From: Gammaproteobacteria bacterium
GTDB lineage: Bacteria; Pseudomonadota; Gammaproteobacteria; Pseudomonadales; Pseudohongiellaceae
Assembly (NCBI GenBank): GCA_028825335.1
Contig: JAPKAI010000025.1
Span: forward strand, 1 to 32,505
Length of the DNA stretch: 32,505 nucleotides
Direction: 5' to 3'
The notes under the pieces were generated by a model, which searched no databases, was not told the DNA's origin, and saw only the letters and a list, made by a program, of their open reading frames with translations. Below are positions 7,162 to 14,172 of the stretch, in pieces; position 1 is the first letter of the stretch; the number at the start of each line of letters is the position of its first letter. Made by a program: the position numbers and the translations under genes.

Positions 7162-8232
7162 ATGGAATCCATTTACTACGTGCTTTGCTGGCATTGCCAT
7201 CGCCGCTGCAAGCATTGCTATGAGTCTCGTTTTCGACCCTATATTAGGGATGAACTGGAGGCAGTCGTTGCCGAGGCGGAAACGAATTTCCCGAACATAA
7301 TCGCCAACCTGCCAGAACGCATGACCTTTCTGGAGGAAAATCCCGATTCTTCAAAATCAGAAGACTATATCGAAAAGACAGGAAAAATAATTCTATCCGG
7401 CGGTGACGTACTAACCGAACCCGTTCGCGAAAGAATCCTCTATCCGGTGTTAGAAGCGCTGCAAGAAAAATACCAAGACAATGGTGGAATAAAAGTGGTG
7501 GTACAAACCACTGGCGACTTGCTAACGCCGAAGATTATAGATGAGTTATTGAGCCGCAACATCTGGTCTATCTCTGTATCTGGCATGGATGATTTTCATG
7601 TAGGGATGGAAGGTGATAAGAAGGATGCTCTCGCAGAAAAAGTTACGGCGATGCTAGAAGATGCAGGCATCAAACATGCCGATGGGGAAAGGGACGAGCG
7701 CGCATTAGAGAAGGGGCCGATCTTCAGCATGTTTGGTGCGAGCGAAGATTCCTGGATCGGCAAGCTTTGGCCTCGCGGTCGAGCCTGGGAGAACGGTCTT
7801 TCTCAAGCAACGATCGAAGACAATTTCTGCGATGCTTGGTCCGGTGGGCTTAATTTCTTACAGCACGGCTACGCAGGCTCGGAAGTTTCGATCGACCCTA
7901 CTGGCGATGTTTACCCGTGCTGCATAAAGACCGCTCATCCGCTAGGAAACCTTACCGAAGAGCTTCTTGTAGAGATCCTCGACGACTTAGCCGGCATACC
8001 GGCTATTGAAGCTATCAATGCCGGCAGACCCGAACGCATGGGGTTAACTCATGGATGGGATGAGGAAAAATTCATAGCCGAATCTACAACCAAGACGCCC
8101 AAAGGAGACGACTATAGTAACCTCTGCATCGGTTGCGACAAATTTCATGTAGAGGTATTGGGCGCAGCCCTCGATGAAAAGCGACGCGATCGGCGCGCTC
8201 AACGCATGGGCGTATTAGCTACTAATGGATAA
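7162..8232 (+). CDS. Radical SAM protein with C-terminal SPASM-like cysteines
   Basis: Cytoplasmic iron-sulfur enzyme of 356 aa. The radical SAM cluster motif is at the extreme N-terminus: C12-HRR-C16-KH-C19-Y. LSGGDV (79-84) matches the GGE-type SAM-binding strand. Further cysteines sit at C223 (NFCDAW), C253-C254 (DVYPCC) and C322/C325 (LCIGC), spaced like an auxiliary cluster of SPASM or twitch type. The segment SIDPTGDVYPCC is typical of that domain. AAGGA precedes the ATG by 6 bases. It lies 33 bases upstream of a YnjB-type binding protein, so it is probably co-transcribed with the ABC importer. The substrate is unknown; no short precursor-peptide gene is evident nearby. Confidence 0.85.
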   Translation: MESIYYVLCWHCHRRCKHCYESRFRPYIRDELEAVVAEAETNFPNIIANLPERMTFLEENPDSSKSEDYIEKTGKIILSGGDVLTEPVRERILYPVLEALQEKYQDNGGIKVVVQTTGDLLTPKIIDELLSRNIWSISVSGMDDFHVGMEGDKKDALAEKVTAMLEDAGIKHADGERDERALEKGPIFSMFGASEDSWIGKLWPRGRAWENGLSQATIEDNFCDAWSGGLNFLQHGYAGSEVSIDPTGDVYPCCIKTAHPLGNLTEELLVEILDDLAGIPAIEAINAGRPERMGLTHGWDEEKFIAESTTKTPKGDDYSNLCIGCDKFHVEVLGAALDEKRRDRRAQRMGVLATNG

Positions 8233-8265
8233 ATCAATTTCGCCATCAGCTATCTTGAGATATCA

Positions 8266-9498
8266 ATGGCGCACCTGAGACCATCAACTCCACTTATTCG
8301 AATATTTCTTCTATTCGTTCTACTGCCTCACTCTTCGCTAACAACAGCACAAGCTATTGATGTTGCAGATTGGTCGGCATTGGAACAGCAGGCGCGGGGG
8401 CAAACTGTCTACTTCAATGCCTGGGGCGGCGAGCCCAGAATAAATAGCTATCTTAACTGGGTTGCCCAGACGCTAGAGCAACGCTTTAACATCACTCTTC
8501 AACATGTGAAAGTCGCTGACACTGGCGAAACTGTCTCGAAGATAGTTGCTGAACGAACCGCTGGCAATGATACGAACGGCAGCATTGATCTGTTGTGGAT
8601 CAACGGAGAAAACTTCGCGGCACTTAAACAGAACAAATTACTGTTCGGCCCTTGGGCGGAAGAGCAGCCCAACTTCAGTTTAGTTAATGCGAATCGATTC
8701 CCCGAGATGCGCGAAGATTTCACCGTGCCCACTGATGGCCTAGAGTCGCCGTGGACCCGATCGCAACTCGTTTTCTATCACGACAGCCAATGGCTGGCAG
8801 AGCCCCCTCAAACGATAGCTGCAATATTGGATTGGTCGACATTTAATCCTGGGGAATTCACCTATCCCCGCCCACCGGCATTCCTAGGAAGCACCTTCCT
8901 CAAGCAGGCGGTTCTCGAGATCTCCAACAATGATCCAGCACTGTTTGCTCCGGTCACTGATGATCAATTCCAGCGAGTCACAACTGAATTGTGGGATTAC
9001 CTCGATGCGCTTCATCCTACTTTACTGCGAGCGGGTAGATACTTCCCCAACTCCGCCGCTGAACTGCGACGGCTCATGGGCGACGGCGAAATTTCTCTGG
9101 CGCTAGCATTCAATCCAAACGAGGCCTTGCTCTCGGTTCGAACGGGAGAGTTGCCAGACAGTGTACGAACCTACGTACTGCAAGGCGGCACGATCGGCAA
9201 TGTCAGTTTTCTCGCGATTCCCTACAACGCACAGCACAAAGCCGCTGCGATGATCACAGCTAACTTTCTTCTCTCCATCGAAGCACAGGCCAGGGCCAGC
9301 AATCCGAATCATATGGGAAGCACGACCGTGATTTCTATCGAGGATTTAGACGTAAGTGCCCGCCAGCAATTTGAACCAGTAAGCACTGATTTAGCAGCTG
9401 CTAGCCCAGATGAGCTAAGCCGCAAGCTGCAGGAACCCCACCCCTCTTGGACACCCGCCCTTGAGCGCGCCTGGATCCAGCGCTACAGCGCAAGATAA
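8266..9498 (+). CDS. ynjB: ABC transporter substrate-binding protein, YnjB-like
   Basis: Periplasmic binding protein of 410 aa with a signal peptide (IRIFLLFVLLPHSSLTTAQA). The start of the mature protein (GQTVYFNAWGGEPRINSYLN) and the segments DLLWINGENFAALKQ and GLESPWTRSQLVFYHD resemble the E. coli YnjB family, annotated in some databases as a putative thiamine-type importer component. Its stop lies 3 bases before the permease start, and the ATPase follows, giving the gene order ynjB-ynjC-ynjD. The transported ligand is not known from sequence; iron, thiamine or a thiamine-related compound are only database guesses. Confidence 0.8.
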   Translation: MAHLRPSTPLIRIFLLFVLLPHSSLTTAQAIDVADWSALEQQARGQTVYFNAWGGEPRINSYLNWVAQTLEQRFNITLQHVKVADTGETVSKIVAERTAGNDTNGSIDLLWINGENFAALKQNKLLFGPWAEEQPNFSLVNANRFPEMREDFTVPTDGLESPWTRSQLVFYHDSQWLAEPPQTIAAILDWSTFNPGEFTYPRPPAFLGSTFLKQAVLEISNNDPALFAPVTDDQFQRVTTELWDYLDALHPTLLRAGRYFPNSAAELRRLMGDGEISLALAFNPNEALLSVRTGELPDSVRTYVLQGGTIGNVSFLAIPYNAQHKAAAMITANFLLSIEAQARASNPNHMGSTTVISIEDLDVSARQQFEPVSTDLAAASPDELSRKLQEPHPSWTPALERAWIQRYSAR

Positions 9499-9501
9499 CC
9501 G

Positions 9502-11181
9502 GTGCTACGCTGGGCAGGCCATAGTCTCATCTTCCTGCTAGCCGCACCGATCCTGCTGGGCACGCTTATTGCGAGTTTGCCAGCCTTTGGCTACTTTCCA
9601 CCCTTGGGAAGCTCGGATTTTTCCCTCGAGGCATGGCGCGAGTTATTCGAAGTGCCAGGACTAACTCGAAGCGTATTGATCAGCCTGATTTCGGGGGTCT
9701 TAACGCCGCTGATTTCTCTGGCACTAGTATTCCTCTATCTCGCTAGTGCAACGGGGAGTAAATTGGATCTGTGGATTCGCCGACTCGTTTCCCCCTTACT
9801 CTCATTTCCACATGCTGCTGCCGCATTCGGGCTCGCCTTCTTAATCGCGCCCTCCGGACTATTGAGCCGAATTATATCCCCAGAGCTGACAGGCTGGGAG
9901 CGGCCGCCGGATATTCTTATTGTTAATGACACATGGGGCCTCACTTTATTGTTCGGGCTTATTGTTAAAGAAGTACCATTCCTTCTCTTAATGTCCTTAG
10001 CAGCTCTACCGCAGCTACAGCCCAGGCATCGTATTGAGGTTGCCCGAACTCTCGGTTACCGGCCCACAATAGCCTGGCTCAAAGTAATCGCGCCCAGCCT
10101 TTATCCCTTGGTCCGTCTGCCCGTGATTGTAGTCATAGTATTCGCCTCTGCCACGGTCGATGTTGCGCTTATTCTCGGGCCGACGCTTCCACCTACATTA
10201 AGTGTTAGGGTCTTGTCGTGGTTCAATGATCCGGATCTTAATCTTCGCTTTCTGGCGGCCGCCGGATCTCTATTACAACTAGGAGTGAGCCTGATAGCCG
10301 TAGCAATCTGGCTAGCGCTAGAGAAATTTGTCGGCCTGCTTTGGCGGTTCTGGCTGGCGGCAGGAAACCTTAATACTGGAGAGGGTCTAGCGTTTGCTAT
10401 AGGCAGAAGTGCGATGCCTCTTGTATTAGTGGTAATTGCAGGAAGCATACTCGCCCTGTTAGCCAATGCTTTTGCTGGCCCCTGGCGCTATCCCTCTGCC
10501 CTACCATCTTCCTGGACGATTCAGCACTGGGCAAACAGTCTTTCAGATCTGTCGACACCACTATTTAACACAGTGCTAATCAGCGTTAGCTCCACACTGC
10601 TTGCCCTGCTATTAGTAGTGGCAACACTCGAATCTGAACGACAATCTAGCAAGAGTAAATCTACCGCATTGTGGTTGTTGTATCTGCCCTTGCTGATTCC
10701 GCAAATTGTCTTTCTGTTTGGCATCATCGTGCTGACCGAATTTGTAGGCTGGCAGGCGAACTTGAGTCTTGTGATATTCGGTCACCTCTTGTTTGTTCTG
10801 CCTTATGTTTTCTTGTCACTCTCTGAGGCATATCGTCAACTGGATCCACGCTGGACGCAGGTGGCATCCACGCTAGGGGCGAGTCAGCTAAAGTCGTTCT
10901 GGCGGATCCGGATTCCTTTATTGCTAGCACCGTGTCTAACAGCTGTAGCAATCGGTATGGCGATTAGCATAAGTCTATTTTTGCCGACTCAATTGTTAGG
11001 AGCGGGGCGAATCACGACTATTACATCTGAAGCTGTGGCATTGACGTCCGGGGCGAGTAGGAATTTGATTTCGGTTTGGGCCGTAGTACAACTTTCATTA
11101 CCAATATTAGGCTTTATGATGGCTCTTTTAATTCCAAAATTTGTTTGGCGCAATCGCAGCGGGATGATCGATACACGATGA
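9502..11181 (+). CDS. ynjC: ABC transporter fused permease, YnjC-like
   Basis: Inner-membrane permease of 559 aa made of two fused binding-protein-dependent transport domains, so one polypeptide can supply both transmembrane halves. The two EAA-type loops are visible as EVARTLGYRPTIAWLKVIAP in the first half and QVASTLGASQLKSFWRIRIP in the second. The start is GTG at 9502, three bases after the ynjB stop. The 3' end overlaps the ATPase start as ATGA. Two-domain fusions of this kind are typical of YnjC and ThiP or FbpB-like iron permeases. Confidence 0.85.
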   Translation: MLRWAGHSLIFLLAAPILLGTLIASLPAFGYFPPLGSSDFSLEAWRELFEVPGLTRSVLISLISGVLTPLISLALVFLYLASATGSKLDLWIRRLVSPLLSFPHAAAAFGLAFLIAPSGLLSRIISPELTGWERPPDILIVNDTWGLTLLFGLIVKEVPFLLLMSLAALPQLQPRHRIEVARTLGYRPTIAWLKVIAPSLYPLVRLPVIVVIVFASATVDVALILGPTLPPTLSVRVLSWFNDPDLNLRFLAAAGSLLQLGVSLIAVAIWLALEKFVGLLWRFWLAAGNLNTGEGLAFAIGRSAMPLVLVVIAGSILALLANAFAGPWRYPSALPSSWTIQHWANSLSDLSTPLFNTVLISVSSTLLALLLVVATLESERQSSKSKSTALWLLYLPLLIPQIVFLFGIIVLTEFVGWQANLSLVIFGHLLFVLPYVFLSLSEAYRQLDPRWTQVASTLGASQLKSFWRIRIPLLLAPCLTAVAIGMAISISLFLPTQLLGAGRITTITSEAVALTSGASRNLISVWAVVQLSLPILGFMMALLIPKFVWRNRSGMIDTR

Positions 11182-12779: not shown

Positions 12780-13035
12780 CGATTTTTCCTTGTTAAGCGG
12801 CCCAGTCAAGTGCCTCAATTTAGAGCAGATCAACCAACGCAGCGACTGCCTCACGATCTGACGGATCGGTAAATAGTGCCAGAATCTCCTGACTTTTCAA
12901 TCTCCTAATTCTTCTGCCCGCCATAGATTGCGATACCCTCCGCTTCAGCCAACTGTTATATTGAGGCCGCTACCGACTATTGGTGGCCAATTCAGTCGTT
13001 CAGGAGCTTATTCTGCCCTGATAAAGGAGAACACC

Positions 13036-14172
13036 ATGAAAACTATAAGAAGCATAGCCGGCCTCACCGCCGTCATGCTTATAAGCGGCGCGCTCAACGC
13101 CCAGAGCGCAACTGTGCTCTACAACGAGCGGGTCGTAGAGCTGGAGCAAACACTGCCAGACGCAACTGATCTTTGGGTTAAGCCCGAAGACCTTACCCGA
13201 GTAAACGATTTCATTCTTAAGCCTGAGGGGGCTTGCCTGGACGAATTGTGCGTTCCGGTTCTGCAAGATCGAGACAGCGCCATGTTTATTACCCGGCAGG
13301 GACAATCATGGTTCAACGTTACCGAGCTGGCAGACAAACTGCAGCAAGCCTATGTCACGGATTACAATGACGGCATCTGGAGTTTTGGCACCATGCCAGT
13401 AACGCGTCAGTCTTTCCTACGCGGTGGCGAAGCACCCGATTTCGAACTGATGGGCCGCGATGGCGAGCTAGTTCGTCTTTCAGATTTTCGAGGAAAAAAG
13501 GTATTACTCCTTACTTGGGCCTCGTGGTGAGGATGTCGTCTAGACGTGCCCGTGTGGCAGTCCATATACGAAGAACTCAAGTCTGAAAATTTTGAAATTA
13601 TTTCCGTCGCACAAGATACTGGTGGCGAAGAAGCTGCTGGATACATCTTTGATGATGCGAATGTTAGCTACACAGCGATTATCGATGTTAATCATCAGAT
13701 AAGCTCGCTTTACAATTTGGTCAATGTCCCCTCAGGCGTATGGATTGATGAACAAGGCAAGATCATGCGCATCAATGAAGGCACCTATGCGAAGGAACAT
13801 ATGAATGGCGCATGGGGTACCAATGACTACGTGCCCATCGTCCGTGACTGGGTAGCAAAAGGAGCCGACAGCGAACACGTCTGGGATAGAAGTAAGGTGC
13901 GGGAAAGTATCATTCAACGCACACCTGAAGCCGAGCGTGCACAACCTGCGTTCCGTCTGGGTGGATACTACTTCACCAATGACAACGATGAGAAAGCAGA
14001 ACAATACTGGACCATGGCACAGGAACTAGATCCAACCAGTTGGAACTATCTACGGCAGGATCTACAATATGAAGAAGGTGGCTCTGCTGGGCCCGAATGG
14101 CGTGCCCGTCGCGAACAGATAGAAGGTGCAGGTGGCGCTTACTATGCTCCGCTAGAAATTGAAAACAACTAG
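13036..14172 (+). CDS. Secreted thioredoxin-fold protein, probable selenoprotein (UGA read as Sec)
   Basis: Two open frames in the same phase, 13036-13527 and 13531-14172, are separated only by TGA at 13528-13530. Read through, they give one protein of 378 aa: signal peptide (residues 1-23), an N-terminal domain with C67 and C72 (EGACLDELCVPV), a redoxin domain beginning GGEAPDFELMGRDGELVRLS, and a helical tail. The TGA falls at residue 165 in TWASW-U-GCRLDVPVWQ, where TlpA/AhpC-like redoxins carry the redox cysteine; Cys167 and Arg168 follow. The domain continues normally after it (NVPSGVWIDE). AAGGAG lies 6 bases before ATG 13036. Neighbouring genes use TGA as a normal stop, so general recoding is excluded. 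Otherwise this would be a nonsense-mutated pseudogene. Confidence 0.8.
13528..13530 (+). other. In-frame UGA, probable selenocysteine codon
   Basis: TGA interrupts the redoxin frame exactly between TWASW and GCRLDVP, at the position of the catalytic cysteine. A single-base change in a Cys codon (TGT or TGC to TGA) would also produce it, but conservation of the frame for 214 codons afterwards argues against decay. Confidence 0.78.
13531..13563 (+). promoter_or_regulatory. Candidate bacterial SECIS hairpin
   Basis: Directly after the UGA, 13531-13539 can pair with 13554-13563 with one bulged A (13559) and several G-U pairs; GGAU at the base pairs with GUCC. An inner two-base-pair closing (13544-13545 with 13552-13553) would leave an apical loop GUGCCC that starts with G. 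Position and loop fit the general bacterial SECIS pattern, but the stem is imperfect and was folded by eye. Confidence 0.45.

Follow-up and report, generated by a model that had tools for sequence, protein, structure and literature searches.

The ResA and TlpA thiol-disulfide oxidoreductases are located outside the cytoplasm, where we also propose to place the protein considered here, and they share with it the ResA-type thioredoxin fold. The differences lie in the active site, which is CxxC in these proteins and U-x-C (U-G-C) in the present one, and in the extra N-terminal and TPR-like regions that the latter contains. A group of UGC-containing Prx-like or TlpA proteins has been listed in several reports and, in the parts of these sources that were available, is given as predicted selenoproteins only (PMC2398784, PMC9312934, PMC13188914). 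It appears as 'Prx-like (UGC-containing)', with pfam00578 and the motif UGC, in a table row of PMC2398784 whose first number, 46, we take as a number of sequences, as 'UGC-containing Prx-like protein' in the list of PMC9312934 and as 'UGC-containing TlpA disulfide reductase family protein' in that of PMC13188914. The common features, as far as those parts describe them, are U-G-C in a PF00578/cd02966 domain, the status of a predicted selenoprotein and an origin in Global Ocean Sampling data. The same parts state no difference, and the likeness is one of description, PF00578 and U-G-C both being present in this protein. Deposited examples of the published family are MDE0950781.1 and MBL6689828.1.

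Natural proteins with the corresponding CGC site also exist. According to the available parts of two papers, the bacilliredoxins BrxA and BrxB (YphP/YqiW; PMC8301015, PMC4360819) resemble the present protein in having one residue between the two redox residues, but belong to the DUF1094 family and carry Cys (CGC) and not Sec. A value of -167 mV for CGC peptides is given in a table of PMC2672033, a source likewise seen in part.

Another described group is the NCBIfam equivalog NF041054 ('ResA-like WAxxUGC motif-containing protein'), which matches the present protein with E 3e-73 and is similar to it in the motif, the N-terminal domain and the length (354 model positions). However, at 247.1 bits the match falls short of the curated cut-off of 300, and its best stretch covers only residues 45-254. 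In a scan of 8 relatives with this model, three WAPYUGC proteins scored 466-489 and the Cys homologues L132 and L129 scored 544.5 and 317.7, while the Sec relatives L079, L081 and L122 remained below the cut-off (292, 254 and 230). L122 is a UGA homologue from Candidatus Litorirhabdus singularis IMCC14734, which is a strain according to its record title. Since 247.1 bits is less than 300, the protein is not a member of NF041054 by the model's own rule, and its group, which looks like a sister subfamily, is treated as such here. Literature searches gave no papers under the NCBIfam motif name, nor for selenoprotein together with Pseudohongiella. The kind of protein itself is not new and was predicted before.

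The gene belongs to a bacterium of the Pseudohongiellaceae and lies in a stretch of DNA of 32,505 nucleotides (contig JAPKAI010000025.1, positions 1 to 32,505), the whole of which was analysed and is called the window below. Positions 13036-14172 of the forward strand form one frame of 378 codons, which runs from ATG 13036 to TAG 14170-14172 and contains TGA only once, at codon 165. The following features were distinguished in the gene and just before it.

13024..13029, + strand: ribosome binding site AAGGAG, read from the sequence, 6 bases 5' of the ATG
13036..14172, + strand: predicted selenoprotein gene of 378 codons, with UGA decoded as Sec and TAG as the stop
13036..13107, + strand: signal-peptide-like N-terminus, residues 1-24, assigned by eye, with a low-confidence helix at residues 8-14 in the structural model
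13108..13395, + strand: mainly beta N-terminal domain, residues 25-120, with no clear sequence match in Pfam or the PDB
13234..13251, + strand: codons of C67 (13234-13236) and C72 (13249-13251), both residues unchanged across the aligned Sec and Cys relatives (12-row and 47-row alignments)
13423..13782, + strand: ResA/TlpA-type thioredoxin domain, residues 130-249, from PF00578, PF08534 and ResA structures
13528..13530, + strand: TGA codon, predicted Sec165, in place of the nucleophilic Cys, from the frame and the codons of homologues
13534..13536, + strand: Cys167, partner in U-G-C, invariant in 47 rows and matching the second Cys in alignments with two thioredoxin-family proteins of solved structure
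13547..13559, + strand: proposed bacterial SECIS apex, stem UGCC/GGCA, inner pair C13551-G13554 around GU, unpaired U13555
13729..13731, + strand: Pro232 in the motif N-V-P, the same in all 47 aligned rows
13924..14067, + strand: C-terminal helical, TPR-like region, residues 297-344, from TPR_2 matches in relatives and helices of the model

An initial annotation, made from the letters of the sequence, had proposed a single in-phase TGA at the redox-active residue of an otherwise continuous gene, and this is borne out by the frame and by the motif at the site, W161-A-S-W-U-G-C167, or ASW-U-GCRLDVP around the TGA. The ribosome binding site that it named is present, and the N-terminus, judged again by eye, is signal-peptide-like as it had said. 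AGGAG was found no more than 16 bases from the chosen start in 18 of the 30 copies of the gene extracted from other genomes and from the window. The continuation of the domain on both sides of the TGA was also correctly seen: the PF00578 redoxin domain, the top Pfam family for this protein, spans it from residue 130 to residue 244 (E 7.6e-16). Ordinary ORF calling does split the gene, as had been foreseen, giving two ORFs, 12928-13530 and 13546-14172, of which the latter starts with GTG. In the six frames of the window this is the sole case of a TAA- and TAG-free run of at least 200 codons with a TGA between two pieces of at least 60 codons.

The conservation of the TGA was studied in several sets of genomes. 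A search of 117 genomes, including the window's own, at E <= 1e-30 gave a match in 32 of them and 34 matches in all, of which 31 have an internal TGA. Thirty of these TGA copies were extracted: 29, counting the window's own, come from its genus, and L045 comes from another family of the order. In every one of the thirty, TGA is at codon 165 and the motif is W-U-G-C. The remaining TGA copy, L048 (G093:C48:26900-30500), is a second copy in genome G093, is 54% identical and contains W-U-I-C. W-C-G-C is found in the three matches that lack TGA, of which G099 has one and G101 has two. A 'TAA inside' the copy of genome G019 was considered as a lesion and rejected, this TAA being the copy's own stop at codon 376.

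The search with NF041054 in 390 genomes drawn from the order (E <= 1e-40, five candidates scored per genome) gave a match in 13 genomes, with 18 loci. Seventeen loci were read, namely 15 of these 18 together with L048 and L002; TGA was found in 11, and TGC in five C-G-C homologues and in L002, which is the genome's own ordinary CAPC thioredoxin. Finally, 350 named relatives were scanned and the best 80 kept, 79 with TGA and one (L129) with TGC, from which the share of Cys forms is not to be estimated, because many of them are the same genomes as in the 117-genome search and the other 270 are outside the sample. The record titles of these best 80 of 350 include Pseudomonadales, other Gammaproteobacteria, Acidobacteria/Vicinamibacterales, Hydrogenedentota and Planctomycetes. 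TGC is the codon at position 165 in six Cys homologues (L129, L132, L137, L139, L140 and L145). Every homologue examined carries either TGA (U) or TGC (C) here, the two residues that the initial annotation had named in its check on homologues. The spacing of one residue, which it had set against CxxC, is kept throughout the 47-row alignment.

Selection on the two parts of the gene was compared in the 29 genus copies (406 pairs), using codons 25-164 and 181-376. Over all 406 pairs the median pN/pS is 0.163 before the TGA and 0.176 after it. This ratio is given alongside dN/dS because synonymous sites are nearly saturated, with a mean pS of 0.79 in both parts, which leaves dN/dS for only 83 and 74 of the 406 pairs, respectively; the medians in these unsaturated pairs are 0.050 before the TGA and 0.051 after it. 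Both ratios being similar before and after, the two parts are under similar purifying selection as protein in one frame, and read-through of the TGA is thus under selection.

The region that follows the TGA contains a conserved candidate hairpin, described here with the T of TGA as base 1. Synonymous variation is lacking at just 4 of the 195 degenerate codon columns conserved in the 29 copies, namely the consecutive codons of D170, V171, P172 and V173 (bases 16-27), which contain one arm of a stem 20-23/29-32 together with most of its loop. The apex has five pairs, those of this stem and pair 24-27; all five are formed in each of the 78 distinct UGA sequences and in one of six Cys sequences. 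Pair 24-27, with both bases at third codon positions, is C-G in 62 and A-U in 16 of the 78, and columns 24/27 are the strongest covarying pair within 48 bases. The second strongest covarying columns, 19/26, are no base pair of the model and go with the residues at 171 and 173. Bases 19 and 33 are paired in the 25 sequences with Leu171 (C-G in 20, U-A in 5) and unpaired in the 53 with Val171, including the window's copy.

Compensatory changes were counted in 35 of the 78 distinct sequences, near-duplicates having been dropped by eye. Two-sided changes were found in 17 cells against 6.2 +/- 1.6 in shuffles, and pair 24/27 was changed on both sides in 12 of the 35 sequences; these counts are inflated by relatedness, since on a tree of 46 Sec rows the A-U state at 24/27 corresponds to 2 changes, in 2 independent pairs, too few for significance alone. 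When the pairs were slid by +1 as a control, the covariation score was 0.266 versus 0.269 for the model, and 54.8% of cells were paired versus 92.4%. The covariation at pair 24/27 supports the hairpin without being proof of it. A long lower stem (7-14 with 36-43), good in some single sequences, showed no two-sided change and was no better than shuffles in 22 distinct sequences, so the apex alone is claimed as the hairpin.

The initial annotation had seen a plausible hairpin immediately after the TGA, and this stands in part: comparison places a conserved hairpin at 13547-13559, but the minimum-energy fold of the 48 bases of the window's copy is another structure, from which this hairpin is absent. 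An Rfam scan of the window gave no match. The predicted apex provides a hairpin just 3' of the UGA, the position characteristic of a bacterial SECIS, and its binding by SelB would be putative. The SECIS apex of E. coli fdhF exposes GU too. One of the Cys sequences, L129 (JACPPG010000021.1, Planctomycetia, TGC), keeps 4 of the 5 apex pairs, and its hairpin is perhaps a relict of a change from Sec to Cys, a reading made unsure by the long branch and by the 3 to 5 pairs kept in the other five Cys sequences.

The genes for the decoding of UGA as Sec, which the initial annotation had named as a check, were all found in the window's genome: selA (568 bits), selB (379 bits, cut-off 242), selC, encoding tRNA-Sec (68.9 bits, gathering 47), and selD (284 bits). 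The selD match is in an ORF of 757 residues (L046:256-2529), the N-terminal part of which is NADH-dehydrogenase-like, a label given by eye. At E <= 1e-60, selB was found in 33 of 35 genomes with the UGA gene, over the cut-off in 32 of them and below it in G032, and was detected in none of the 4 genomes with C-G-C homologues only. Two genomes with the UGA gene deserve mention. In G061 (84% complete) selA and selB were not found and tRNA-Sec was found; in G019 (85% complete) selA, selB and tRNA-Sec were all not found, which may reflect either missing contigs or a recent loss of Sec decoding. Some members of the genus, for example G011, G014 and G036, have selB but no match to the UGA gene, so the distribution of the gene within the genus is patchy.

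An AlphaFold2 model of the protein, obtained from the 47-row alignment with U written as C, has a mean pLDDT of 89.2 and a pTM of 0.86. Foremost among its PDB matches, found with Foldseek, are ResA (1su9, E 9.1e-12, TM 0.83 by target length) and other TlpA-type proteins, and the closest folds include TlpA in mixed disulfides with ScoI and with a cytochrome subunit II. In two sequence alignments with solved proteins U-G-C is aligned with CxxC, the query being one residue shorter. Residues W161, S163, W164, 165, G166, C167, P232, C67 and C72 are invariant in 47 rows. Pro232 is, we presume, the cis-proline expected beside the active site, and C67 and C72 of the N-terminal domain are a possible second redox pair. 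TPR_2 was matched at E <= 0.1 in 37 of 47 relatives, and the C-terminus, which is helical in the model, has a weak TPR likeness; GSHPx was matched at E <= 0.1 in 47 of 47.

Neighbouring genes were compared at 81 loci, the window included, and the 25 largest clusters were considered, down to those present in 4 loci. The three most widespread begin no more than 1.1 kb from the TGA and seem to represent portions of this gene or reading frames that overlap it. Each of the other clusters among these 25 occurs in 13 loci at most, with members outside the close group at scattered offsets, and no neighbour family at the 81 loci points to a substrate. Among 10 window neighbours scanned, none matched a cytochrome-biogenesis Pfam family. 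One run at 7162-11181 of the window comprises genes for a radical SAM/SPASM protein (7162-8232), an extracellular solute-binding protein (8266-9498) and a transporter membrane component (9502-11181).

Summarizing these data, it may be concluded that UGA almost certainly stands for Sec at the active site of a probably secreted ResA/TlpA-type redox protein; the computed checks on the sel genes and on the codons of homologues support the selenoprotein reading of the initial annotation. If the UGA were a true stop, due to a nonsense mutation, an assembly error or a decaying gene, the 3' half would be a remnant or would have its own start at GTG 13546. The two ORFs obtained by ordinary calling agree with this, as does G019, which has the gene and in which selA, selB and tRNA-Sec were not found. 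We regard it as extremely improbable, because the conservation of this TGA in all 30 extracted copies argues strongly against a stop, purifying selection is similar on both sides, the second ORF would begin within the thioredoxin domain and the Cys versions read straight through. That the UGA is translated as Trp, or through suppression as Cys, and not as Sec is an idea to which we give hardly any credence. Near-cognate read-through happens in general, and beyond this no support for it was found; against it stand the TGC codon for Cys in the examined non-UGA homologues, the use of TGA as the next in-frame terminal stop of gene copies L028, L031 and L038, the presence of selA, selB, selC and selD and the conserved hairpin 3' of the UGA.

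Other alternatives concern the function of such a selenoprotein. Its main task may be peroxide removal of a peroxiredoxin- or GPx-like kind and not thiol-disulfide reduction, which we consider possible but doubtful: the first Pfam family, PF00578, is AhpC/TSA, all 47 relatives show the GSHPx match and the group is named Prx-like in the parts of PMC2398784 and PMC9312934 that were available, but among solved structures ResA and other thiol-disulfide proteins match best, NCBIfam names the neighbouring family NF041054 ResA-like, and the Prx motif TxxU, as given in the available part of PMC13188914, is absent at the site, which has W-U-G-C instead. A thiol reductase for metal centres or cytochrome maturation, like ResA and TlpA proper, with the TPR-like tail binding its partners, would suit both that tail and the closest folds, including the mixed disulfides of TlpA mentioned above. 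It seems unlikely to us, given that no neighbour family occurs in more than 13 of the 81 loci, apart from the three clusters beside or within the gene, and that 0 of the 10 scanned neighbours match a cytochrome-biogenesis family.

The biochemical role of the protein is most likely that of a periplasmic selenol-based thiol or peroxide reductase. As a secreted, probably periplasmic, ResA/TlpA-type thioredoxin-fold selenoprotein, it would be made by SelB and tRNA-Sec decoding UGA 13528 as Sec, as directed by the hairpin, the stem of which starts 16 bases 3' of the UGA. Sec165 would attack a disulfide or a peroxide as a selenol, and Cys167, one residue on, would resolve the product as a U165-C167 selenenylsulfide, possibly a strained one because only one residue separates the two. 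Oxidised thiols or peroxides of the periplasm would be the likely substrates and a membrane thiol donor may re-reduce the protein, which is the direction of electron flow that we infer. We give the reductase chemistry, in this wording, about an even chance.

A further and rather improbable suggestion is that the members of a distinct and widespread subfamily (WASWUGC/WSSWUGC, ~378 residues) might combine Sec-x-Cys with C67/C72 in a three-step periplasmic electron relay, in which the spacing would tune the strain of the selenenylsulfide. The W-U-I-C paralogue L048 is noted beside this suggestion.

A gene truncated by ordinary ORF calling is confirmed here from the raw sequence. With it, a selenoprotein family so far given as predicted in the available parts of the cited lists gains a likely sister subfamily. 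Relatives with UGA and with Cys are provided as well, together with a conserved hairpin in which synonymous positions show compensatory changes and what would be a natural Sec version of the CGC site. The rules of SECIS recognition and the chemistry of the U-x-C site may be directly tested with these sequences.
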